A stretch of 40,101 nucleotides of DNA from the NCBI GenBank assembly GCA_030532895.1, contig JAUNKF010000030.1, positions 1 through 40,101 of the forward strand, given 5' to 3'. The notes under the pieces are model-generated. The model did no database searches. It was not told the origin of the DNA and saw only the letters and a program-made list of their open reading frames with translations. The stretch is from Lautropia sp. (GTDB taxonomy: Bacteria; Pseudomonadota; Gammaproteobacteria; Burkholderiales; Burkholderiaceae_E). Position numbers and translations under genes: made by a program. Shown here piece by piece: positions 29,274-40,101 of this stretch. The first letter of the stretch is position 1. Every line of letters starts with the position of its first letter.

Positions 29274-30854
29274 TTAGCCGCCCGCCCGAAGCCCGGAGAG
29301 CTGCACCGAAAACATCATTTCGTCAGTCACATCCAGGCAGCGCAGGTCAAGCCACAACGCATCGTCAGCGATGCGGCCGATAACAGGTTGAGGCAGGCCG
29401 CGCAAGGCGGCAGCCAATGCCTTCAGATGGCGGCCAGCCCGCTTGCCATCGGTACGACGCAGCACGCAGCCGTAGCTCGGCAACACATCCACCGGCAGCG
29501 CACCGCTGCCAATCTGACTGAACATCGGCTCGATGCTCACCTGCCAGTCTGATCCCAGCGCTTGTTGCAAGGCCGGCTGCACACGCAGGCTCTGCTGGTG
29601 GATGTCGGCTTGCGGGCGAGTGAGCAGCCGGAGTGTGGTGAGCCGTGATTGCAAATGTTCCGGACTCAGATAGAGTCGCAGCAACGGTTCGATGGCAGCG
29701 AGCGTCAGCTTTCCCACACGCAACGCACGTTTAAGCGGATTTTTCTTGATGCGGGCGATCAGCCCCTTTCGCCCCACGATGAAACCGGCTTGCGGGCCGC
29801 CCAGCAATTTGTCCCCACTGAAGCTCACCAGGTCAGCACCTGCGGCGATGGTCTCCTGCACGGTGCTTTCATGCGGCAAACCCCATTGGGTGAAATCGAC
29901 AAGACTGCCGCTGCCCAGGTCAACGACCATCGGTAGACCTGCCTCATGCGCCATGTCAGCCACCTGAGTTTCAGGCACCGAACGCGTGAAGCCTTCCACC
30001 GAATAATTGCTGGTGTGCACCTTCATCAGCATCGCGGTTTTCGGGCCGATGGCATCACGATAATCGGCCGGATGCGTGCGATTCGTCGTTCCCACTTCCT
30101 TCAGTCGTGCCCCGGCCCGTGACATGATGTCCGGAATGCGAAAGGCACCACCAATCTCGACCAGTTCGCCCCGCGAGACGATCACCTCCTTGCCACGCGC
30201 CAGACTGTTCAGCATCAGGAGAACCGCGGCCGCATTGTTGTTGACGATCGTGGCATCTTCTGCGCCCGTGATCTCGCGCAGCAAGTCGGCCACCAAATCA
30301 TCACGATCGCCACGCGCGCCAGTGCCCAGATCAAACTCCAGGTTACAGGGCGAACGCATCGCCACCACCACAGCCTGCACCACTTCTTCAGGCATCTGCG
30401 TGCGCCCCAGGTTCGTGTGCAGCACCGTACCCGTCAGGTTGAACACCGGCTTCAGGCGGGGCGACAGGCGCTTGGCGACCGAGGCTTCGATGTCCGCCGC
30501 CCAGGCTTCATCCGTTTTCCCCCATGCAGGCTGCGCGACACCCGTTGATGCACGGCCAGCCTCCTTTTCCTCCTTTTCCCCCTGCATGGCAGCTGCTACA
30601 GCAACTCGCTCACCCGCTGTTTGCGCAACGACGCCGGCCGATTGCCCAACAACCGCCTCCGTTCCGCGCCTGGTCCGTTGTGCATCTCCGCTTGCCCCTG
30701 GCTGGCCGGCAACCGACTGCCGACGGGCAGCCAGCACCTCACGAATGACGGATACCGTCAGCGTGTGCCCATGCTCGGCCACCAACGTCTGCACGCGGGG
30801 CAATTGCAACAGCGCATCCACCGAGGGCAGACGTTCGCGCGCATCATAAGACAT
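29274..30854 (-). CDS. selA: L-seryl-tRNA(Sec) selenium transferase SelA
   Basis: SelA is a decameric PLP enzyme that converts Ser-tRNA-Sec to Sec-tRNA-Sec with selenophosphate. The core motifs are [13 protein letters not shown] (about 139-151), [13 protein letters not shown] (about 203-215), [33 protein letters not shown] and the PLP lysine Lys349 in [14 protein letters not shown]. The C-terminal [11 protein letters not shown] and VIGRI are present. It has 526 residues against 463 in E. coli. The surplus is a low-complexity Ala/Gly/Glu/Gln-rich insert at about residues 47-113 between the N-terminal tRNA-binding domain and the linker helix. The ATG at 30854 lies 11 bases after the fdhE stop, with a TGAGG purine stretch upstream. 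Confidence 0.96.
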
Positions 30855-30865
30855 CAGACAGAACC

Positions 30866-31825
30866 TCAAGCCTCGTCGGCGTTCATGATCAGAAAGGGAT
30901 TCAGCCCGGCGCGGGCGTGATCCTCCTGGCCCATCAGGATGTCGAGGGCCAGCGTGGCCAGATCATCCGACAGCACCTCGATCGAGTGATCCTTCTGCAA
31001 ATCGAAGAGCTTGCGGTAGCTGCCGCAGTTGTCGCACAGCTCGGCCATGCAGGCCACGGCCGCCTCGGCATCGGCCTCGGTTTGCTCGGCCTCGGTCAGC
31101 CGTCGATAGCTGATGCCCTTCGTCGAGGCGCAATTGCTGCACTTGACCCGCACCATATGCCATTCGGTGGCGCAAATGCCGCAATGCAGATAACGCAGGC
31201 CAGCACTCTGCCCATCGATGCGAATGATGCTGGCCACCGGATGACTGCTGCACACGGGGCATACCGTGACCGGATCGACATAGGGCAGCTTGTTCACGTC
31301 GAGCACCGCCGCCTTGGCCGTCATCACCACCTGCAGGGCCGCCATCACGAAAGGCGCCTTGACCCGGCGCGATTCGTTCAGAGGTGCCCCCATCAGCACG
31401 GCATCCACGAGCTGCATCAACGTCCGCTCATCCATCGCCTGAAGCTCGGCCATCTGTTCGCGCTGAAAATCCGTGTTCTCGGGTGAGGGCCCGATCACGT
31501 CCAGCAGCGCCTGAAGGCAATGACGCAGCTCAGCCCCGTGCTCGTTCGAGACCTGCCACAGCGGCATCGCATGGGTTTGCGCCCGCTCATACACGGCCTC
31601 GGTCGGCTGGGACGCAGCTGGCAGCCCCTTGAACACCTGATGCTGAGCATCCATCAAGCGGGCCACATACCGCAAAAAATCCGCGATTGGACTGCCCTCG
31701 GCCAAATGACGAAGCCGTGCGGCACGATCCAGAAAGAGGCTCGCAGGTTGCGGCAGGCGGATGCGAGGGAAAGCCGTGCGATCAAGGGCTTCGATCTCGC
31801 CCGGCTGCAGGATGCGTTGTTGCAT
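30866..31825 (-). CDS. fdhE: Formate dehydrogenase accessory protein FdhE
   Basis: FdhE is a cytoplasmic rubredoxin-like, iron-binding protein needed for respiratory formate dehydrogenase maturation. Its four Cys pairs are visible: CPVC (189/192), CGIC (215/218), CSNC (229/232) and CDNC (264/267). The family phrases [20 protein letters not shown] and [11 protein letters not shown] are present. The length is 319 residues from the ATG at 31825; the longer open frame upstream begins within the likely promoter. It is the first gene of the fdhE-selA-phd-vapC-selB-selC-mnmH run. Its structural partners fdhI and fdhH lie 7 kb away on the same strand, separated by the metal-ATPase island and a toxin-antitoxin pair. 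Confidence 0.94.
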
Positions 31826-31865
31826 GAGGATGGTCTTGACACAAGAAAAGCGGTAGAAGACAGCG

Positions 31866-31894
31866 ATCATAGCCGGGATGCCCGGTCGGTGAAA
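31866..31894 (-). promoter_or_regulatory. Candidate promoter for the fdhE-sel operon
   Basis: On the minus strand TTTCAC (31894-31889) and TATGAT (31871-31866) are spaced by 17 bases, and the -10 box is about 40 bases before the fdhE ATG. This is a moderate sigma-70 match and would let the selenium genes be transcribed independently of the distant formate dehydrogenase genes. Confidence 0.4.
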
Positions 31895-32148: not shown

Positions 32149-32532
32149 ATGGCCACCCAGACAAAAACCTTTTCGGTCAACACGCCGCCCGCGGAGCTGC
32201 TGGCGCATTTCGTGCCTTTCCTCAAAATCGCCCATCAGATTCCCGGCCGCGTGCGCTTCAAGTTCAGCACCCGTGCTGCCAATGGCGTGGGCTTCGACGG
32301 CCCGGCCAACAGCAGTGAGGCGCTCGCCCAAGTGCTCAAGCAAACCCGCGGCATCAAGGACATCAGCTGGAACCTGCTGGCACGCTCCTGCACCGTGAGC
32401 TATGACCCGAGGGTCATTCCCGACCGTGCCTGGGTCGACCTGCTGGCCGGCCACCAGAGCACAGCCGCCGACACGCTCCATGCCATTCTGGAAGAAACCC
32501 ATGCGCAACTTCGGCAATCCGCGGCCCGCTGA
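32149..32532 (+). CDS. HMA-like domain protein (no CxxC)
   Basis: This is a 127-residue soluble protein that opens the island operon. The IPGRVRFKF strand (about residues 32-40) and the later IKDISWNLLARSCTVSYDP form the beta-alpha-beta pattern of a heavy-metal-associated-like fold, of the type that begins (I/V)PGR(V/I)R. The CxxC metal ligands of classical HMA domains are absent. Similar N-terminal modules occur in the ATPase at the end of this operon and in the minus-strand gene at 36.9-37.7 kb. It may be a chaperone or docking protein for that ATPase. No strong ribosome-binding site is visible before the ATG. It overlaps the next gene by 32 bases. Confidence 0.7.
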   Translation: MATQTKTFSVNTPPAELLAHFVPFLKIAHQIPGRVRFKFSTRAANGVGFDGPANSSEALAQVLKQTRGIKDISWNLLARSCTVSYDPRVIPDRAWVDLLAGHQSTAADTLHAILEETHAQLRQSAAR

Positions 32533-33193
32533 ACGGCTCAGTCCGACCGCCGCCTCGGCACTCGGTGCCGCCCTGCTCGACGAGCTGTCCGCCCAGCGCT
32601 TCTTTCATGCCGTCATCGGGGCCTTCGGCCCAGTGGATCCCTGGCCTTCACTCGCGCACAGCAACGCACTGCGGCTTCGGATCCTGACCGCACTGGCGCA
32701 ACGGCATGGCGTGGCACTGCCCCCGCCGCCGCCAGACACCACCCAGCTCATGCCCGGCTGGCGCATCAACCTGGAACGCGCCCAACTTGGCTGCGTCTCA
32801 TCCGTGAGCCTTTACCAACAGCTGATCGCCAGCGTGCCCGATGCCTCGGTGCGCAGCGTGTTCCAGCGCTTCCAGACCGAGCTGCTGACCCGCCAACTGC
32901 CTGCCCTGCAACGCGCCTGGCAGGCAGCCGCCGACCGCGAGCGATACCACGCCATGCAGGGTGTCGATGCCGATCAGGCCTATCACTCGCATGGGCTGAT
33001 CGGCGACACCGTCGAACAGCTGCTGGCGCTTCTCACCCGCCAGGGCGGGGTTTTCGGGCTGGCCGGCACCTTGCTTCGTGCTGCGCACCCGGCACTGGTG
33101 GCCGGTGCCTTCACCGGCAGCGCCGCCGTCCAGGGCGTTCGCCTGCGCCGCCAACTGGCGTCTCGCAGCACCACCTACCCTCAGGAGGATTGA
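32501..33193 (+). CDS. Ferritin-like (DUF2202-type) protein with degenerate ligands
   Basis: This 230-residue protein has an N-terminal helical half resembling the DUF2202 ferritin-like domain. The segment ALLDELSAQRFFHAVIGAFG, then a Pro-Trp turn, ILTALAQRHGVALPPPPP, and later YQQLIASVPDASVRSVFQRF match the family's order. The expected Glu/His metal ligands are largely replaced (for example SNALRLRI where EE-H is usual), so a metal site like that of true ferritin-like oxidases is doubtful. The C-terminal part (about 175-225) is Gly/Ala-rich and hydrophobic. The ATG at 32501 lies inside the upstream gene's 3' end; the longer frame before it is a shadow. Its role is unknown; a structural partner of the ATPase complex is a guess. 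Confidence 0.5.
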   Translation: MRNFGNPRPAERLSPTAASALGAALLDELSAQRFFHAVIGAFGPVDPWPSLAHSNALRLRILTALAQRHGVALPPPPPDTTQLMPGWRINLERAQLGCVSSVSLYQQLIASVPDASVRSVFQRFQTELLTRQLPALQRAWQAAADRERYHAMQGVDADQAYHSHGLIGDTVEQLLALLTRQGGVFGLAGTLLRAAHPALVAGAFTGSAAVQGVRLRRQLASRSTTYPQED

Positions 33194-33196
33194 TCC

Positions 33197-33655
33197 ATGT
33201 TGCCCTTGCTCCCCTTCGTGGCCGGCATCGTCGCCGGTGCTGCTGGCGCCGAACTCTGGCGCCGTGGTGCCGTGCAAAAAGGTTTCAGCACCGCCAGCGG
33301 CAAGCTGCGCTCGGCCGCCAGCACCAGCATGGACAGCGTCCGTCAAACAGGCCAGCAACTGAAGGCCACGGTCAGCGACACGTTGCAAAAAGCCTGGCCC
33401 AGCCGCGACCCTCAGCCTGTCCTGCCCAGCCGCAAGCCGGCCGGCACAGGCCCCGCGCGTCAGGCGGCCAAATCGGCGCGTGCCCACGCCCGCGCCAGCG
33501 CGCCCGCCAGCTCACGCGTGGCGGCCCGACAGCAGCGCAGCTCACGCCGGCCCGGCCCCGCTGCCAGCACGGCTGCGCCCAAAACAACCGCGGCCGAGAA
33601 AAAAGCGGCCCCGGTCGTCAAGCGCACCCGCAAGCCCAAAGCCAGCGCCTCATGA
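33197..33655 (+). CDS. Small membrane protein with Gly-rich helix and basic tail (PacL-like by context)
   Basis: This 152-residue protein starts with a small-residue membrane helix (LLPFVAGIVAGAAGAELW, residues 3-20). An amphipathic stretch to about residue 75 follows, then a Lys/Arg/Ala/Pro-rich tail ending KRTRKPKASAS. AGGAGG precedes the start by about nine bases. In layout the N-terminal part recalls DUF1490/DUF5132-type small proteins that accompany P1B ATPases, such as PacL proteins beside mycobacterial CtpC. The metal-binding Asp/His tail of PacL is absent and replaced by a histone-H1-like basic tail. The similarity is by architecture and position, not by a confirmed match. Its stop overlaps the next start (ATGA). 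Confidence 0.55.
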   Translation: MLPLLPFVAGIVAGAAGAELWRRGAVQKGFSTASGKLRSAASTSMDSVRQTGQQLKATVSDTLQKAWPSRDPQPVLPSRKPAGTGPARQAAKSARAHARASAPASSRVAARQQRSSRRPGPAASTAAPKTTAAEKKAAPVVKRTRKPKASAS

Positions 33656-34017
33656 AATACCCGCTCGCTGTGCCCGGCCATCTGGCCGGGCGGGCACTCG
33701 TGCCCTACCGACATCGTCCGGTGCCGGTGCCGCCGCGCTCACTCACCGAAGAATTCGTTCGAGGCAGCATCACCACCGGGATTCTGGCCGCCCTGCAAGG
33801 CCGGCAAGCCAGCCTCGATCGGCGCACACTGCGCCTGGCCGTGCAAGGTGGCGTGGCACTGGCTGCCGGCACCGCAGCCGTTCAGGCCGCACGCGAGGCT
33901 CGACACGGACAGATGCTGCTGGCCATCGCAGCCGGTGCCACCGCCGTGGCAGCCGCCGAACACTTATTGAAAGAAGAACCGATCTCGAAGGAGTTGCCTC
34001 ATGGGCAAAAAACGTAA
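33652..34017 (+). CDS. Small two-helix membrane protein of the island
   Basis: This 121-residue protein is not one I recognise. The first 45 residues are Pro/Arg-rich. Two Ala/Gly-rich hydrophobic segments follow at about residues 65-82 (VQGGVALAAGTAAVQAA) and 90-107 (LLAIAAGATAVAAAEHLL), separated by a short basic loop. It starts in an ATGA overlap with the upstream gene and ends 17 bases inside the downstream gene, so it is almost certainly co-translated with them. A membrane adaptor for the ATPase is plausible but unproven. Confidence 0.6.
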   Translation: MKYPLAVPGHLAGRALVPYRHRPVPVPPRSLTEEFVRGSITTGILAALQGRQASLDRRTLRLAVQGGVALAAGTAAVQAAREARHGQMLLAIAAGATAVAAAEHLLKEEPISKELPHGQKT

Positions 34018-34528
34018 GCAGGACAAGTACGCCTATCAGCAAGCCATGCAGCAACCGATGCCGCCTGGTGCGGGCTGGCAGGAAGACAATGCCTGGAACC
34101 CGCACTATCAGCAACAGCCCTGGATGGAGGCCGGCAACGCCTACGGCGTGCCACCCGGTGCTTATCCGGGTTATCCGGGCACTGCGTATGGCATGCCACC
34201 CGGCAACCCCTATGGCGCCACGCCTGGCACGCCCTACCCCGGCGCGCCCTTTCCGGGCGCCGGGCAGGCACAGGGTTTCGGCGCACCTCATGGCGCGGGC
34301 GTGCTGGGCTGGCTCGGCAACCGGCAGATGGAACAGTTCATCCTCGGCCTGATCCTTGGCGGTGCGGCCGCCTACGTGCTGGGCGACCCGGAAAAACGTG
34401 CCCGCCTGATTCGCATGGGCATGAAGCTCTACGCGGGCGTGGCCGGCAGCGTCGAAGAGTTCAAGGAACAGATCGCCGACCTGAAAGCCGAAGTGGCCGC
34501 CGAACAGGGTACCGATTTCGAGGATTGA
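34001..34528 (+). CDS. Pro/Gly/Tyr-rich YtxH-like membrane protein
   Basis: This 175-residue protein begins with a basic KKRKQDKYA start. A long disordered-looking region of PGxPY/PPG units follows (about residues 20-100). Then comes one membrane helix, MEQFILGLILGGAAAYVLGD (about 111-130), and a charged amphipathic helix with VEEFKEQIADLKAEVAAEQ. The helix followed by a coiled-coil-like segment is the YtxH style. AAGGAG precedes the ATG by about seven bases. It is placed immediately before the ATPase. The Pro/Gly/Tyr-rich region could be a flexible tether or a low-affinity metal- or protein-binding segment; its function is unknown. Confidence 0.6.
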   Translation: MGKKRKQDKYAYQQAMQQPMPPGAGWQEDNAWNPHYQQQPWMEAGNAYGVPPGAYPGYPGTAYGMPPGNPYGATPGTPYPGAPFPGAGQAQGFGAPHGAGVLGWLGNRQMEQFILGLILGGAAAYVLGDPEKRARLIRMGMKLYAGVAGSVEEFKEQIADLKAEVAAEQGTDFED

Positions 34529-34532
34529 TCCG

Positions 34533-36689
34533 ATGCCGACGCCCGCCGTTGCCCGCCTTTTTGCCTCGCTCACGCCCGTGCACCAGACGCCGACACGGGT
34601 ACGCTATCGTTATCAGCTGCGCGAGGGGCTTCAACCGCTGTCACCACAGGCGCTGGAACGACTGGCCAGTGACATCCCCGGCGTCGAACAGGTTCGCCTG
34701 AACCCCAAGGCCAAATCGCTCGCCCTGCAATATCGCCGCGATCAGACGAACCAGGACAAGCTCGCCACCGCCCTGCTGGCTCTGCCGGCTGCGGTGGCCA
34801 CGGGCCCCTGCGGCAAGGCAGTGGCCGAGGCCGTCGATGGCGGCACCTCCGACAACCCGCTGGCTGCGGCGAGCGAAGTGCTGGCCAGCGGTGCGCTGTT
34901 GCTCACGAGCAAGGCCAACCTGCCAGCCGCGCTGCGCGAACCGGCCACCCTGGCCGTGTCGGCTCCGCTCTACATTGAAGCGCTGAAGGATCTGTTCACC
35001 GAAGGGCTGAACTCACACGTGCTCGAAGCGCTGGCCGTGGCCATTTCCACCGCCAGTGGCGACCGGCTGGCGGCCAACACCACGCTCTTCATGCTGGCGC
35101 TGGGCGAATATCTGGAACACTCGATCGCGCGCCGCTCGGACGACCTGCTCAAGCACCTGCTGCATCCCGAAATGGATCAGGTGTGGGTGGAACGTGAAGG
35201 CCAGGAGGCGCTGGTGGATGCCGATCAGGTCGAGATCGGTGACACCGTCGTCTGCCCTGCCGGCAACCTGATTCCGGTCGATGGCACGGTGCTGAGTGGC
35301 GAGGCCACGGTGAACGAGGCCAGTATGACGGGCGAAAGCGTGCCGGTGCCACGCAAACGGGGCGATACCGTACTCTCGGGTACGGTGGTGGAAGAAGGCC
35401 GGATTCGTGTCTACGCCGAGCGGGTAGGCGCCGGCACGGCCAGCGCCCGTATCGCCAACTATGTGCAGCACGCACTGCAGGTAAAAAGCGGCACACAGCT
35501 CTCGGCCTCTCGACTCGCCGACAAGCTCGTGCCGGGCGTACTGGGGCTGGGTCTCGTCAGCTGGCTGCTGTCCGGCGACTGGCGCCGCGCCGCAGCCGTG
35601 CTGCAGGCCGACTATGCCTGCGCACTGAAGCTGGCCACCCCGGTGGCTTTCAAATCCGCCATGTACGCGGCCGGCAAGCGCGGCCTGCTCTTCAAGGGCG
35701 CCGACGCGCTGGAGCGGCTCTCCGAAGCCGACACCTTCGTCTTCGACAAGACCGGCACGCTCACGACCGGCCAGCTGAGCGTGACCGATGTGCTGTCTTT
35801 CGATGAGGATTTCGACCAGGAAGACGTGATCGACCTGGCGGCTTCGGTCGAGGAGCATTATTTTCACCCGATGGCGATGGCCGTGGTGGAAACGGCCCGG
35901 CAGCGGGGCGGCCGGCATTTCGATCATGGCGAGGTGAGTTTTCTGGCCGCCCACGGTGTGACCAGCGTCGTGCAGGGTCAGCCGATCGTGGTCGGCTCAC
36001 GCCACTTCATCGAAGACCATGAGCACATCTCGCTCGACCCACACCGCGAGGAAATCGAAGCGCTGCTGGCCGAAGGCAAGACCCTGCTCTACATCGGCCT
36101 GGGCGGCAAGCTGCTCGGCGTGATCGGGCTGAAAGACAGCGTGCGTCACAATACGGCACAGACCATAGCCCGACTGCGTGAGCAAGGCGTCAAGCGGATC
36201 CTGATGCTGACGGGCGACCACACCGACCGTGCCGCCGAGCTGGCGGGCGAGCTCCAGCTGGACGATTTCCGCGCCGAGCTGATGCCCGAAGACAAGGCAT
36301 CGGTGCTGGCAGAACTCACGGCCGAAGGTGCCAAGATCGCCTTCGTCGGCGATGGCATGAACGACGCCCCGGCGCTGGCTGGTGCCCATGTCGGCATCGC
36401 GATGGAACGCGGTGCCGACCTGGCCCGCCTGACCTCGGACATCGCGCTGCTCGAAGACGACATCGCCCGCGTGGCCGACGCCAAGACGCTGGCCAACAGC
36501 ACGATGCGCCACATCGACAGCAACTTCAAGCTGACAGTGGTGGCCAACACCGGCATCCTGGCCGCGGCCGCCACCGGCTCGCTCAGCCCGATCGCCTCCT
36601 CGGTGATGCACAACGGCAGCACGATCGCCATCCTGCTGAACGCCCTGCGCGGCGGGCTGGCCGCAGGCCGGGATGCGAGCGGCACATAG
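34533..36689 (+). CDS. P1B-type metal-transporting ATPase (CtpC-like)
   Basis: This is an inner-membrane cation ATPase of 718 residues. The N-terminal HMA-like module (about 20-80) lacks CxxC. The actuator domain has the TGES loop (266-269). The ion-binding helix reads DYACALKLATP (360-370) where copper and zinc pumps have CPC. The phosphorylation motif is DKTGT with Asp405. The nucleotide domain has the P1B His-Pro dipeptide (445-446, in EEHYFHP). The hinge motifs are TGDHTDRA and GDGMNDAPAL (606-615). The last helices include MHNGSTIAILLNALR. The [S/A]CALKL wording fits the group near CtpC, some of which move Mn, Fe or Zn, but the ion cannot be assigned. It is the last and largest gene of a six-gene operon. 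Confidence 0.9.
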   Translation: MPTPAVARLFASLTPVHQTPTRVRYRYQLREGLQPLSPQALERLASDIPGVEQVRLNPKAKSLALQYRRDQTNQDKLATALLALPAAVATGPCGKAVAEAVDGGTSDNPLAAASEVLASGALLLTSKANLPAALREPATLAVSAPLYIEALKDLFTEGLNSHVLEALAVAISTASGDRLAANTTLFMLALGEYLEHSIARRSDDLLKHLLHPEMDQVWVEREGQEALVDADQVEIGDTVVCPAGNLIPVDGTVLSGEATVNEASMTGESVPVPRKRGDTVLSGTVVEEGRIRVYAERVGAGTASARIANYVQHALQVKSGTQLSASRLADKLVPGVLGLGLVSWLLSGDWRRAAAVLQADYACALKLATPVAFKSAMYAAGKRGLLFKGADALERLSEADTFVFDKTGTLTTGQLSVTDVLSFDEDFDQEDVIDLAASVEEHYFHPMAMAVVETARQRGGRHFDHGEVSFLAAHGVTSVVQGQPIVVGSRHFIEDHEHISLDPHREEIEALLAEGKTLLYIGLGGKLLGVIGLKDSVRHNTAQTIARLREQGVKRILMLTGDHTDRAAELAGELQLDDFRAELMPEDKASVLAELTAEGAKIAFVGDGMNDAPALAGAHVGIAMERGADLARLTSDIALLEDDIARVADAKTLANSTMRHIDSNFKLTVVANTGILAAAATGSLSPIASSVMHNGSTIAILLNALRGGLAAGRDASGT

Positions 36690-36734: not shown

Positions 36735-36796
36735 CTTGATCACGTCCCATCGATTCGGGTTGATCAAGTGGCGGGCATGTTGGAACCAACATGCCC
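36735..36796. repeat. Inverted-repeat cluster downstream of the ATPase
   Basis: In the 195 bases between the convergent ATPase and HMA-like genes are two symmetric elements. An 8-bp inverted repeat (CTTGATCA 36735-36742, TGATCAAG 36761-36768) is followed directly by a near-perfect 24-base palindrome (GGGCATGTTGG 36773-36783, CCAACATGCCC 36786-36796). The second could form a strong hairpin in RNA on either strand. No U-tract follows, so it is not a standard terminator. It could be an operator, a factor-dependent terminator or an RNA-stabilising hairpin. Confidence 0.7.
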
Positions 36797-36884: not shown

Positions 36885-37667
36885 TCATTTGAACAGCGAC
36901 TTACGGTGTACGGCGAGGTGTACACCCAACAGGCCGACAAAGGCGCTGCCCGTCACGATATGGCCTTTCTTGGAACCCGCCGCCGCCAGCCCGAGCGATG
37001 ACCCCAGGCTGAGCAGCATGCCCTGCTTGGCCACCTGATTGACCCGCTTGCGCCAATTGATCTTGCCAAGGCGCGAGGGGTTCCTGTTCGGCGTGGCCTG
37101 CTTGCACCCTTCTGTCGCTTTGCCACCTTGGGCATCTTTGGCGGCTTCACCCCCGTTGGCCCCCATGCCCGCCTTGGCGCCCATCCTCCCTTGAGCGGGC
37201 AGGTTCTCCGCTTTCTTCACGCTAGCCGGAGATGCAGCCAGCGGCAAAGACCTGCTCGCCGCCTTGGCGCCGACCGAAGCGGACGCCTCCTCCCGCAAGG
37301 CCCACCAGCCTTTCCACTCAGCGGCAGCAGGCGATTCGGGGCGCCGTGATGCGGAACGCCCGTGATCCGCTTCTCCCGGTGCTTTCACGGCCATGCCCTC
37401 TTCAGCGCTGGCCTGCACGCCAACCGATACCGGCAGGATGCTGTCGAGCATGTCGGTGAGGCGCAACACGGCCGCTTCAGGCGGCAAACGAACCGGGTCG
37501 TATCGCATCAAGAGGCTGCCCACCCGTGCGTTCGTCTGTACCGACACAACCCCCGGCAACACCTGCAAGCGGCGCTGCACGCTCTCCAACCCGTGCGGCA
37601 CACGCAGCCTGGCCCCACGCAAGCGGATGCGGCCCGGCACATTCGATACAAGAACATCGGTCATCAT
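36885..37667 (-). CDS. HMA-like membrane protein with disordered linker
   Basis: This 260-residue protein is encoded convergently to the ATPase operon. Residues 1-80 form an HMA-like module: VSNVPGRIRLRGARL, then VLPGVVSVQTNARVGSLLMRYDP. It has the same PGRxR strand as two proteins in the facing operon and again no CxxC. A Lys/Ala/Gly-rich low-complexity linker follows (about 85-205). The C-terminus has two hydrophobic segments (GMLLSLGSSLGLAAAG and GSAFVGLLGVHLAVH) and a basic end. It looks like a membrane-tethered partner of the ATPase system, under separate control. The start is ATG 37667 or the adjacent ATG 37664. Confidence 0.68.
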   Translation of the reverse strand: MMTDVLVSNVPGRIRLRGARLRVPHGLESVQRRLQVLPGVVSVQTNARVGSLLMRYDPVRLPPEAAVLRLTDMLDSILPVSVGVQASAEEGMAVKAPGEADHGRSASRRPESPAAAEWKGWWALREEASASVGAKAASRSLPLAASPASVKKAENLPAQGRMGAKAGMGANGGEAAKDAQGGKATEGCKQATPNRNPSRLGKINWRKRVNQVAKQGMLLSLGSSLGLAAAGSKKGHIVTGSAFVGLLGVHLAVHRKSLFK

Positions 37668-37958: not shown

Positions 37959-38234
37959 ATGACTGCCAAACCCATGACCACCCGAATCTTCAAAAGTGGC
38001 AACTCGATGGCGGTGCGCATACCACGGGAATTGGCCGCGTATTCAACTGCCGAGGAAGCCTTGATCGAGTGGCAGGATGACGCCTGGATCGTTCGCCCCA
38101 TTCAACAACGCTCACTGGCCGGGTTGGCTGATGTCTTTCGGGCCTTTCCTGCCGATTTCATGGCAGAAGGTCGGGAAAAGCACGAACAGGAAGAACGCGA
38201 TTGGTCTGCTCTGTCGCAATCGCAATCAGATTGA
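37959..38234 (+). CDS. vapB: VapB-type (AbrB/MazE-fold) antitoxin
   Basis: This is a 91-residue antitoxin. The N-terminal swapped-hairpin DNA-binding motif reads TRIFKSGNSMAVRIPRELA, characteristic of VapB/MazE proteins. The C-terminal half is charged (MAEGREKHEQEERDW) and would bind the toxin groove. The start is ATG 37959 or ATG 37974 (MTTRIF). The cognate toxin starts 16 bases downstream. The upstream palindrome is a plausible autoregulatory site. Base composition is somewhat less GC-rich than the flanking operons, suggesting independent acquisition. Confidence 0.92.
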   Translation: MTAKPMTTRIFKSGNSMAVRIPRELAAYSTAEEALIEWQDDAWIVRPIQQRSLAGLADVFRAFPADFMAEGREKHEQEERDWSALSQSQSD

Positions 38235-38250
38235 ACAGGGGCATTAACCC

Positions 38251-38661
38251 ATGTCTCGCTACCTGCTCGATACGAATATCTGCATTTATCTGATGCGCCA
38301 GGTTCCCCCATCGGTTGTCAAACGATTTGAACGGTGCCGCTGGGGAGATATCCGCATGTCAGCCATCACCTTTGCCGAACTTCAAAGTGGCGCAAACCAA
38401 TACAGTGCAGACCCATCCCGCATTCAACGAATCATTCATGAATTGACCGACTGGGTTCCCGTCTTGCCATTCGACACGCTGGCCGCAGAACGATACGGTT
38501 TGCTATACCAACAAGTGAAAAGCCGGAAACGTGATGCACTGGATCGGCTGATAGCAGCCCATGCCATCGCCAGCAACCGGATTCTTGTCACCAACAACGA
38601 GGACGATTTCCGAGACTACCCCGGACTCATCGTCGAGAACTGGGTTGATCCATCCGAGTGA
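38251..38661 (+). CDS. vapC: VapC-type PIN-domain ribonuclease toxin
   Basis: This 136-residue PIN-domain toxin is partnered with the upstream VapB. The catalytic acids are visible: Asp7 (LLDTNICIYL), Glu43 (TFAELQSGA), Asp98 (DALDRLIAAHA) and Asp118/Asp119 (TNNEDDF). The order and spacing match tRNA-cleaving VapCs of the type that target initiator tRNA, but the actual substrate cannot be told from sequence. It differs clearly in sequence from the other PIN toxin at 28.5-28.9 kb, so the two modules are not a recent duplication. It converges with fdhI. Confidence 0.93.
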   Translation: MSRYLLDTNICIYLMRQVPPSVVKRFERCRWGDIRMSAITFAELQSGANQYSADPSRIQRIIHELTDWVPVLPFDTLAAERYGLLYQQVKSRKRDALDRLIAAHAIASNRILVTNNEDDFRDYPGLIVENWVDPSE

Positions 38662-38831: not shown

Positions 38832-39458
38832 TTAGCTGTTGTCTCCCGTCATCTTCCGATACCAGGCACGGTGGTGCTGCTTGGCCCAGGCGCGAGTGAC
38901 GGTGCCATAGAACATGGCGCGAATCGTGCCGCGCGTCCAGATGGCTGCATAGACGTGCAGGATGATCAACAGGATCATGCCGATGGCCGCGGCCGCATGC
39001 ACGACCGAGGCCAGGCGAATCCAGAAGATCGGCACATCGATCATGCTGCGCCACATGGCCAGCCCCGAGGCGGTGAGTGCGATCATGCAGATCACCAGCC
39101 CCCAGAACAACAGCTTCTGACCACCGTTGTACTTGCCCTGCTCGGGCATGTCATGGTCGTCGCCATCGACCATCTTGCGGATTTCCTTCAGCCAGGCGAT
39201 GTCGCGCTTCTGGATGAGGTTGAGCTTCCAGAAGCGGAAGAACATCATCACGAAGCCCAGCGCCATCACCACCCCGATGAAGGGGTGCAGGATCCTCGTC
39301 CAGGGGCCGCCACCGAAGAGCTGCGTGAGCGGGAAGAAGGCCGGATGGAAGAAAGCCAACCCCGAGAGCGCCAGCAGGATGAAGCAGATGCCGACGACCC
39401 AGTGATTGACACGTTCGCCCGCACTGTAGCGAACCAGATCGCGTGGATTGCGTTGCAT
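38832..39458 (-). CDS. fdhI: Formate dehydrogenase subunit gamma (cytochrome b556)
   Basis: This is an inner-membrane diheme cytochrome b of 208 residues that accepts electrons from the FdhH iron-sulfur subunit and passes them to quinone. Four membrane helices are visible, with heme-ligand histidines in RVNHWVVG (helix I), LHPFIGVVMALGF (helix II) and VHAAAAIGM plus ILHVYAAIW (helix IV). The family phrases VNHWVV and SGLAFFHPAF match. The ATG at 39458 is preferred: AAGGAGG lies seven bases upstream, whereas the earlier in-frame TTG at 39464 overlaps the fdhH stop region. It begins two bases after fdhH ends. Confidence 0.94.
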   Translation of the reverse strand: MQRNPRDLVRYSAGERVNHWVVGICFILLALSGLAFFHPAFFPLTQLFGGGPWTRILHPFIGVVMALGFVMMFFRFWKLNLIQKRDIAWLKEIRKMVDGDDHDMPEQGKYNGGQKLLFWGLVICMIALTASGLAMWRSMIDVPIFWIRLASVVHAAAAIGMILLIILHVYAAIWTRGTIRAMFYGTVTRAWAKQHHRAWYRKMTGDNS

Positions 39459-39460
39459 GC

Positions 39461-40101
39461 TCAAGCCTCCTTGCCGCCACGGCGGATCGACGATGCGTGC
39501 TTGTCCAGAACCTGCTCTGCCTCGGCAGCCTGCTCAGCGAGCGTGTCGACTGCCTGCGTGAGCCGCGAGCCAGCAGCCTCGGCATCCTTGCGTTCCATTT
39601 CGTCCTCCAGCTCCTTCGAGACCTCGTTTGGCCCCTTGGTGATGTAGTGGAACAGGCTGCCAAGCGCAGCTGCCCCCATCGCCACCATCGCCAGCGGCTT
39701 GGCCACCCCTTTCCACAAACTCACCATCGGGTTGATGGTCGGGTTGTCGGGCAGGTTGGCATAGAGCGACGGCTTGTCGGCGTGGTGCAGCACGTACATG
39801 ACGTGCGTGCCCCCCACCCCGGCCGGATCGTACAGACCCGCCTTGTCATAGCCGCGGCGCTTCAGGTCGGTGATACGGGTTTCGGCGTGATCCTTCATCG
39901 CCTTCTTCGTGCCGAACATGATGGCGCCGGTCGGACAGGTCTTGACGCAGGCCGGCTCCATGCCCACCGCCACGCGGTCGGAACACAGCGAACACTTGTA
40001 CGCCTTGTTGTCCTTTTGCGAGATGCGCGGCACGTTGAACGGGCAGCCGGTGACGCAATAGCCGCAGCCGATGCACTTTTCCTCGTGGAAATCGACGATG
40101 C
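39461..40101 (-). CDS. fdhH: Formate dehydrogenase subunit beta, iron-sulfur (5' end beyond window)
   Basis: This is the C-terminal 213 residues of the four-[4Fe-4S] electron-transfer subunit; its beginning lies beyond the right edge. Two cysteine clusters are visible: [16 protein letters not shown] close to the edge, and [21 protein letters not shown]. The latter is followed by [14 protein letters not shown]-terminal membrane anchor follows ([20 protein letters not shown]), then a charged coiled-coil-like tail with many Glu/Lys/Ala, somewhat longer than the usual end. It is co-transcribed with fdhI. The catalytic selenocysteine or cysteine subunit should lie upstream, off the window. Confidence 0.93.

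Follow-up and report, generated by a model that had tools for sequence, protein, structure and literature searches.

Which metal does a P-type ATPase move, and to where, when five small genes are packed directly before it and another lies just beyond? This question is raised by a locus in Lautropia sp. (assembly GCA_030532895.1, contig JAUNKF010000030.1), of which we analysed the first 40,101 nucleotides, here called the window. The initial annotation described six genes (g1-g6) as an undescribed accessory-rich system for the export or metallation of an unassigned metal, perhaps a larger membrane assembly or compartment-like complex. Our results indicate that these genes, together with a seventh on the opposite strand (g7), are a ferrosome (fez) locus of the proteobacterial multi-gene type, a reading to which we give a probability of roughly 0.83. 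Ferrosomes are small membrane-wrapped iron stores in some bacteria; they are said to have been named only recently, in papers by Grant in 2022 and by Pi in 2023. The guess of a membrane assembly or compartment thus gained support. The words "undescribed", "unassigned metal" and "export" did not, since the ATPase, the His-hairpin protein and the small transmembrane (TM) protein match the ferrosome set of Solidesulfovibrio magneticus RS-1. The locus is a fez variant that carries a ferritin-fold gene and whose fezC is divergent; it is no undescribed export system.

The ATPase and the probable RS-1 ferrosome locus

We scored g6 against NCBIfam and identified it as a heavy-metal P-type ATPase: it reached 483.9 bits with TIGR01525, whose cut-off is 346.25, in agreement with its first description as a P1B-type enzyme. 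The canonical CPC of TM4 is missing; the M4 motif is instead D360-Y361-A362-C363 (DYAC), and M6 carries H693-N694. In the available part of PMC9374683, HN in TM6 is named as a P1B6 feature, and DUF6110 genes are stated to be typically encoded alongside P1B6 ATPases. On sequence grounds, the ion site of g6 likely comprises D360 and C363 (M4), N672 (M5) and H693 and N694 (M6). The pairing of D[YF]xC with HN offers an ion-site hypothesis for FezB that is accessible to mutation. A sequence search of solved structures with g6 returned the usual CopA/ZntA chains.

We then compared the window with a reference genome (G775), which is RS-1: 6000 bases of its 58,704-base contig C3 are 100% identical to NC_012797.1. 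With the Mailhella ATPase as query, a single RS-1 match passed E<=1e-100; it lies in a locus (L173) with the order 86-aa TM protein, ATPase, HMA/His-hairpin protein. The alignment of g6 with this ATPase showed 36% identity over 717 columns (E 7e-112) with the N-terminal HMA-like part covered, so the two FezB proteins are homologous end to end, and D[YF]xC and HN are common to both. Both loci also have a small TM protein directly before the ATPase and a FezC homologue with an HMA domain and the hairpin H-x3-G-x9-H-x3-H. The window differs in its five small genes ahead of fezB (RS-1 has one small TM protein), in its ferritin-fold gene, and in a fezC that encodes a long Ala-rich linker and lies on the opposite strand instead of in line. 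In the accessible text of PMC10979944, the FezB of D. magneticus is called a putative ferrous iron transporter, and its FezC is reported to be DUF4405-like and to behave like a heme b cytochrome.

The assignment of g7 was supported by a profile built from g7 and three congeners, which matched the RS-1 hairpin protein at E 1e-14. The hairpin spacing in g7, seen also in a BLASTP comparison, is identical to that of the RS-1 protein adjoining its ATPase. In Pfam, g7 matched HMA_2 (E 1.4e-6) and DUF4405 (E 0.033), both under cut-off, and the RS-1 FezC-type protein is likewise under the DUF4405 cut-off (E 0.2). The solved-structure sequence search with g7 gave one chance-level chain. A second FezC-type hairpin, fused to a SpoIIAA-like domain (PF11964, E 1.3e-18), was seen at L064:10416-11018, in a gammaproteobacterial metagenome-assembled genome (MAG), isolate BB4.

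To place g6 among its relatives, a FastTree phylogeny of 162 ATPases was examined, after four duplicate ATPase rows, two rows outside P1B and one second ATPase in L109 had been dropped. The window ATPase fell with RS-1 in a 71-row clade (support 98), every row of which carries D[YF]xC in M4. Overall, the motif occurs in 72 of the 162 rows; a clade of 75 rows is the smallest to enclose these 72, and the motif is absent from the other 87. These 72 rows were selected by the motif pattern itself, so their 72/72 presence is uninformative, and the test lies in the tree placement and in 14 rows picked by score before the motif was inspected, all 14 of which have D360 and C363. Among the non-motif rows (n=93), C stands at position 361 in 84 and P at 362 in 90. 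HN at M6 was found in all 71 motif rows that have letters at this site and also in 21 of the 93 other rows, indicating that HN is not sufficient for a P1B6/FezB assignment. D[YF]xC may serve as a simple marker for candidate ferrosome makers. The 71-row clade splits into two branches. In one, the window groups with other Proteobacteria and a Sulfurospirillum MAG; the sister branch holds Desulfovibrionaceae, Clostridia and Methanobrevibacter.

Several other ATPases were recorded along the way. Those of L083, L089 and L126 (two cyanobacteria and one Chloroflexi MAG) are sister to the fez clade and have an M4 of D[FL]xxGIRV with no Cys. The ATPase of L084 (a Bacteroidales MAG) branches deeper, with M4 DYSCG and g1-like HMA genes on either side. 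The clostridial ATPases of L099 and L102 are of the CPC type and have HN in TM6, and they lie near a small regulator that we take to be CsoR-like; HN alone is thus no marker of a ferrosome ATPase. On contig C61 of MAG BB4 (L183, L190-L194), eight P-type ATPase matches are scattered over 144 kb, one of them with M4 DYGTGIRIAAP, and a lone g3-like protein lies on the same contig (L190:10836-11051).

Gene layout and conservation of the accessory genes

We read the gene layout from the open reading frame (ORF) coordinates (Table 1). The six packed genes of the initial annotation stood as described: three neighbouring pairs overlap, by 32, 4 and 17 bases, and the other two pairs are 3 and 4 bases apart. 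Shine-Dalgarno-like purine-rich stretches precede g3, g5 and g6 and are not clear for g1, g2 and g4. The span of g7 begins 195 bases beyond g6, outside the reported operon; g7 is part of the fez unit, which therefore has seven genes and is larger than the reported six. We also compared each of the seven genes pairwise with up to three congeners. The 20 ratios of nonsynonymous to synonymous substitution rates (dN/dS; NG86, a rough estimate with dS often near 1) ranged from 0.06 to 0.56, indicating that g1-g7 are real genes.

Table 1. Genes of the probable fez locus, in coordinates of the window
Gene	Position	Strand	Length	Product
g1	32149-32532	+	127 aa	small HMA_2-like protein without CxxC
g2	32501-33193	+	230 aa	ferritin-fold protein, diiron ligand positions mostly lost; C-terminal part low-confidence
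g3	33197-33655	+	152 aa	N-terminal hydrophobic segment with small-residue packing; Lys/Arg/Ala-rich tail
g4	33652-34017	+	121 aa	Gly/Ala-rich hydrophobic protein
g5	34001-34528	+	175 aa	Gly/Pro/Gln/Tyr-rich N-terminus, hydrophobic segment and amphipathic helix; FezA/DUF6110-like
g6	34533-36689	+	718 aa	FezB-type P1B6 ATPase; N-terminal HMA-like region
g7	36885-37667	-	260 aa	FezC homologue: HMA domain, Ala-rich linker, two-helix hairpin H-x3-G-x9-H-x3-H

The first characterisation of the small proteins was also upheld. g1 is HMA-like and CxxC-less, with a single Cys; it matched Pfam HMA_2 at E 4.7e-6 and 27.1 bits, under the cut-off of 30, and its L064 homologue clears that cut-off with 31.6 bits. 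The ferritin-like nature of g2 was confirmed by its predicted structure, a four-helix ferritin fold, although Pfam gave no match for the window protein. g3, g4 and g5 are indeed small and Gly/Ala-rich with hydrophobic stretches. Nothing above cut-off was found for g1-g5 in Pfam or NCBIfam, and g4 had no Pfam match.

We next related g5 to the small TM proteins of the sister branch, where such a protein precedes the ATPase in 10 of 11 loci examined (the eleventh, L075, starts near a contig end) and in RS-1. Six of these proteins were scanned for DUF6110: those of L067, L079, L078 and L095 pass the cut-off, that of L080 stays under it (E 0.00044), and the RS-1 86-aa protein is weak (E 0.049). The C-terminal part of g5 with five relatives aligned to ten DUF6110-type proteins, RS-1 included, at an hhalign probability of 84 (E 7.4e-6), and g3 did so weakly at 67; both values are pairwise and on TM segments, and call for caution. 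The Gly/Pro/Gln/Tyr-rich N-terminus of g5 is extra.

To assess conservation, we searched the genus, class and phylum. The ATPase was present in seven of eight other genus genomes, the eighth being a fragmented assembly about 81% complete, and the order g1-g2-g3-g4-g5-g6 was kept in all seven, which supports the reading as one conserved unit. In the class sample, one of 185 genomes matched at E<=1e-100, namely the window's own. In the phylum sample, 50 of 398 matched at E<=1e-80; eight of them (the window's own included) reached 1e-120 and matched from near the N-terminus, and the remaining listed matches begin at residues 130-188, like CPC-type ATPases.

Genus-only profiles were then applied to loci outside the genus. 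L064 holds g1, g2, g4 and g5 in order before the ATPase, and a Sulfurospirillum MAG (L061, on a short contig) holds g3, g4 and g5, with a hairpin protein after the ATPase. The g3 profile matched L061 at E 7e-10, and the g4 profile matched L061 (E 2e-6) and L064 (E 1e-4); a 60-aa ORF in the g3 place of L064 is g3-like by position and pattern only. In Hahella (L062), Rhodomicrobium udaipurense (L063) and Rhodobacter capsulatus (L065), g5-like genes precede the ATPase. Across a first set of 15 motif loci outside the genus (L054-L065 with a listed match), g5 was found in 11 and g1 in five.

We searched 17,775 ORFs with widened profiles of g1-g5 and FezC; reversed-ORF decoys gave no match below 0.01 for any profile. 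Within 4 kb of a D[YF]xC ATPase (72 loci), the results showed g1 in 20, g2 in 10, g3 in 11, g4 in 17 and g5 in 30 loci, FezC with hairpin in 24 and an HMA-only form in 20. At the 84 loci of other ATPases, the same 4-kb range held no g2, g3, g4, g5 or full FezC; g1 was found at two of them and the HMA-only form at six. These counts include profile seeds (9 of the 10 for g2, 9 of 11 for g3, with L062 not among them, 10 of 17 for g4 and 11 of 30 for g5), and the FezC seeds were first-round matches of the profile from g7 and three congeners. Flanks are only about 1.5 kb long at many of the motif and control loci, so the numbers of neighbours are minimum values for either set. The 80 named loci are among the matches listed in a pattern scan (K[LI][SA]TPV[AT]FK and FDKTGTLT), and these patterns favour the fez clade. 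The profiles thus place the g2-g5 set beside the fez-type ATPase and beside none of the 84 other ATPase loci. This neighbourhood search, which the initial annotation had proposed, found the accessory genes kept beside the ATPase across genomes, so the refuting outcome that the annotation had named did not arise; the set does exceed the single partner of other such ATPases.

We also considered ferrosome systems in other bacteria. In the accessible part of PMC12016538, R. palustris CGA009 makes ferrosomes from six fez genes, RPA2333-2338, and according to an excerpt of PMC6879726, rpa2333-2338 are lowered under low light along with iron genes. Of 297 genomes in the order of Rhodomicrobium, 12 have the ATPase, that of Rhodomicrobium included. 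Two genomes of this order (L179 and L180) have g1-like and g5-like genes (genus-only profiles) and a g4-like gene (wider profiles) before FezB, and no g2 match with the widened profiles. The C. difficile system consists of FezA, FezB and FezX (available parts of PMC12574912 and PMC11533511), and its ferrosomes contain amorphous iron phosphate (same part of PMC11533511). For comparison with fezXAB, we searched the family of Faecalimicrobium; six of 71 genomes have a DFSC/HN ATPase, each with a FezA-like TM protein, recognised by pattern, in the locus.

Weighing the ferrosome reading and its alternatives

The ferrosome reading draws on gene order, homology, residue patterns, the predicted fold of g2 and purifying selection. 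Several results weigh against it. No Fur-box-like site (best 11/19) and no FNR-like site was found within 350 bases 5' of g1 in eight genomes, though this result is uninformative. In the tree, the window lies in the branch sister to that of RS-1 and not adjacent to RS-1, and the identity of the RS-1 locus with the published fez operon goes by a single strong match and the FezC description, not by a locus tag. The six-gene cluster RPA2333-2338 is likened to the window by its description in the accessible text, not gene by gene. g5 does not reach DUF6110 in Pfam, its link being the pairwise hhalign match over a TM-containing stretch. Within the few kb fetched, g7/FezC adjoins the operon in only four of eight genus loci (the window, L046, L048 and L049). 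g2 was found outside the genus only in L064 and, weakly for its C-terminal part, in L061. Finally, two ferritin-family genes lie elsewhere in the genome, so the host need not depend on ferrosomes for storage.

The strongest alternative, which we consider unlikely, is a plasma-membrane efflux platform of the PacL/CtpC kind, in which small TM proteins cluster the ATPase and iron or another metal is exported with no vesicle. In the available part of PMC9374683, PacL1 combines a TM domain with Glu/Ala repeats and a disordered region and forms membrane foci together with CtpC; its family, DUF1490, is related to DUF6110 and confined to actinobacteria. The DUF6110-type homologue in L080 touches DUF1490 at E 0.0014, under cut-off. 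The initial annotation had compared the locus to PacL, and the comparison was apt: DUF6110-type proteins precede the sister-branch ATPases, g5 aligns to them, and both systems, as far as that text goes, join a small TM protein with a disordered tail to a P1B ATPase with HN in TM6. However, CtpC keeps CPC in TM4 according to the same text, whereas g6 has DYAC; the seven window proteins showed no DUF1490 match at E<=1 in Pfam, and none ends in the terminal metal motif of PacL, DLHDHDH. The FezC homologue and the tie to RS-1 favour a ferrosome.

It is very improbable that the locus is an operon for zinc, cadmium, cobalt or copper resistance whose accessory genes are unusual. g6 does score above the NCBIfam cut-offs of the general and cadmium-type P1B subfamilies, but it lacks CPC in M4 and falls outside the CPC-type rows of the tree, and none of the 84 other ATPase loci has a nearby match to the g2-g5 or full FezC profiles.

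Less probable still is a ferritin- or encapsulin-based iron store with the ATPase incidental, which the ferritin fold of g2 might suggest. We inspected the positions that we take to be diiron ligands, read off L064, in eight genus sequences. The results showed that E and H of helix B (ExxH) and E of helix C are lost in all eight, H of helix D is kept in two, and E of helix A is kept in seven; g2 thus lacks the full set of helix A-D diiron ligands of ferritin-like/DUF2202 proteins. The solved-structure sequence search with g2 gave one chance-level chain, and a literature search on DUF2202 gave no match. Encapsulin (PF04454) had no match in the genome, compared with 3 of 14 named genomes in a control, in a search that left family 2 shells outside its scope. 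Chance open frames beside an ordinary ATPase, for which the lack of Pfam or NCBIfam matches above cut-off for g1-g5 might speak, are already refuted by the gene order kept in seven of seven congeners, the relatives in L064 and L061, and the dN/dS values.

If the locus is a ferrosome locus, the ATPase would load iron into a vesicle and not export it, since ferrosomes are iron stores. We infer that g6, as FezB, would transport Fe(II) out of the cytoplasm and into a membrane vesicle. The Gly/Ala helices of g3, g4 and g5 pack tightly, and their tails are disordered or amphipathic; these proteins may gather FezB into a patch and bend the membrane to a vesicle, and g5, directly 5' of fezB, would be the FezA/DUF6110-like member. 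The HMA-like domain of g1, which has no CxxC, could act as an adaptor or iron sensor, and g7, a putative heme b cytochrome by homology with FezC, could control the redox state of iron as it enters or leaves. With its diiron ligands mostly lost in the genus, g2 is more likely a structural or docking subunit than a ferroxidase. The locus is clearly conserved and provides a compact list of ferrosome parts.

A ferritin-fold protein without iron ligands also raises the question of how two iron-storage strategies relate. One tentative answer, to which we give well below even odds, is a hybrid organelle in which g2, having given up its ferroxidase site, would serve a membrane-bound iron store as coat, adaptor or nucleation subunit, and the three packing-helix proteins would build the vesicle. 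If true, a protein cage and a lipid organelle, the two known bacterial kinds of iron storage, would be joined in one structure.

Surroundings of the locus

We finally examined the surroundings of the ferrosome locus. One promoter-like and three terminator-like matches were found at the same level as in shuffles and are uninformative. The window flanks (29274-31870 and 38832-40033, both on the minus strand) carry SelA/FdhE genes on one side and formate dehydrogenase iron-sulfur and cytochrome b subunits on the other, suggesting that the host has a selenium-linked formate dehydrogenase region there. Between g6 and g7, at 36735-36768, lie two near-palindromes, CTTGATCA and TTGATCAAG. At 37959-38661 on the plus strand, a small ORF with no Pfam match is followed by a PIN-domain protein (PF01850, E 5.7e-17), a pair that looks like a VapBC-type toxin-antitoxin.

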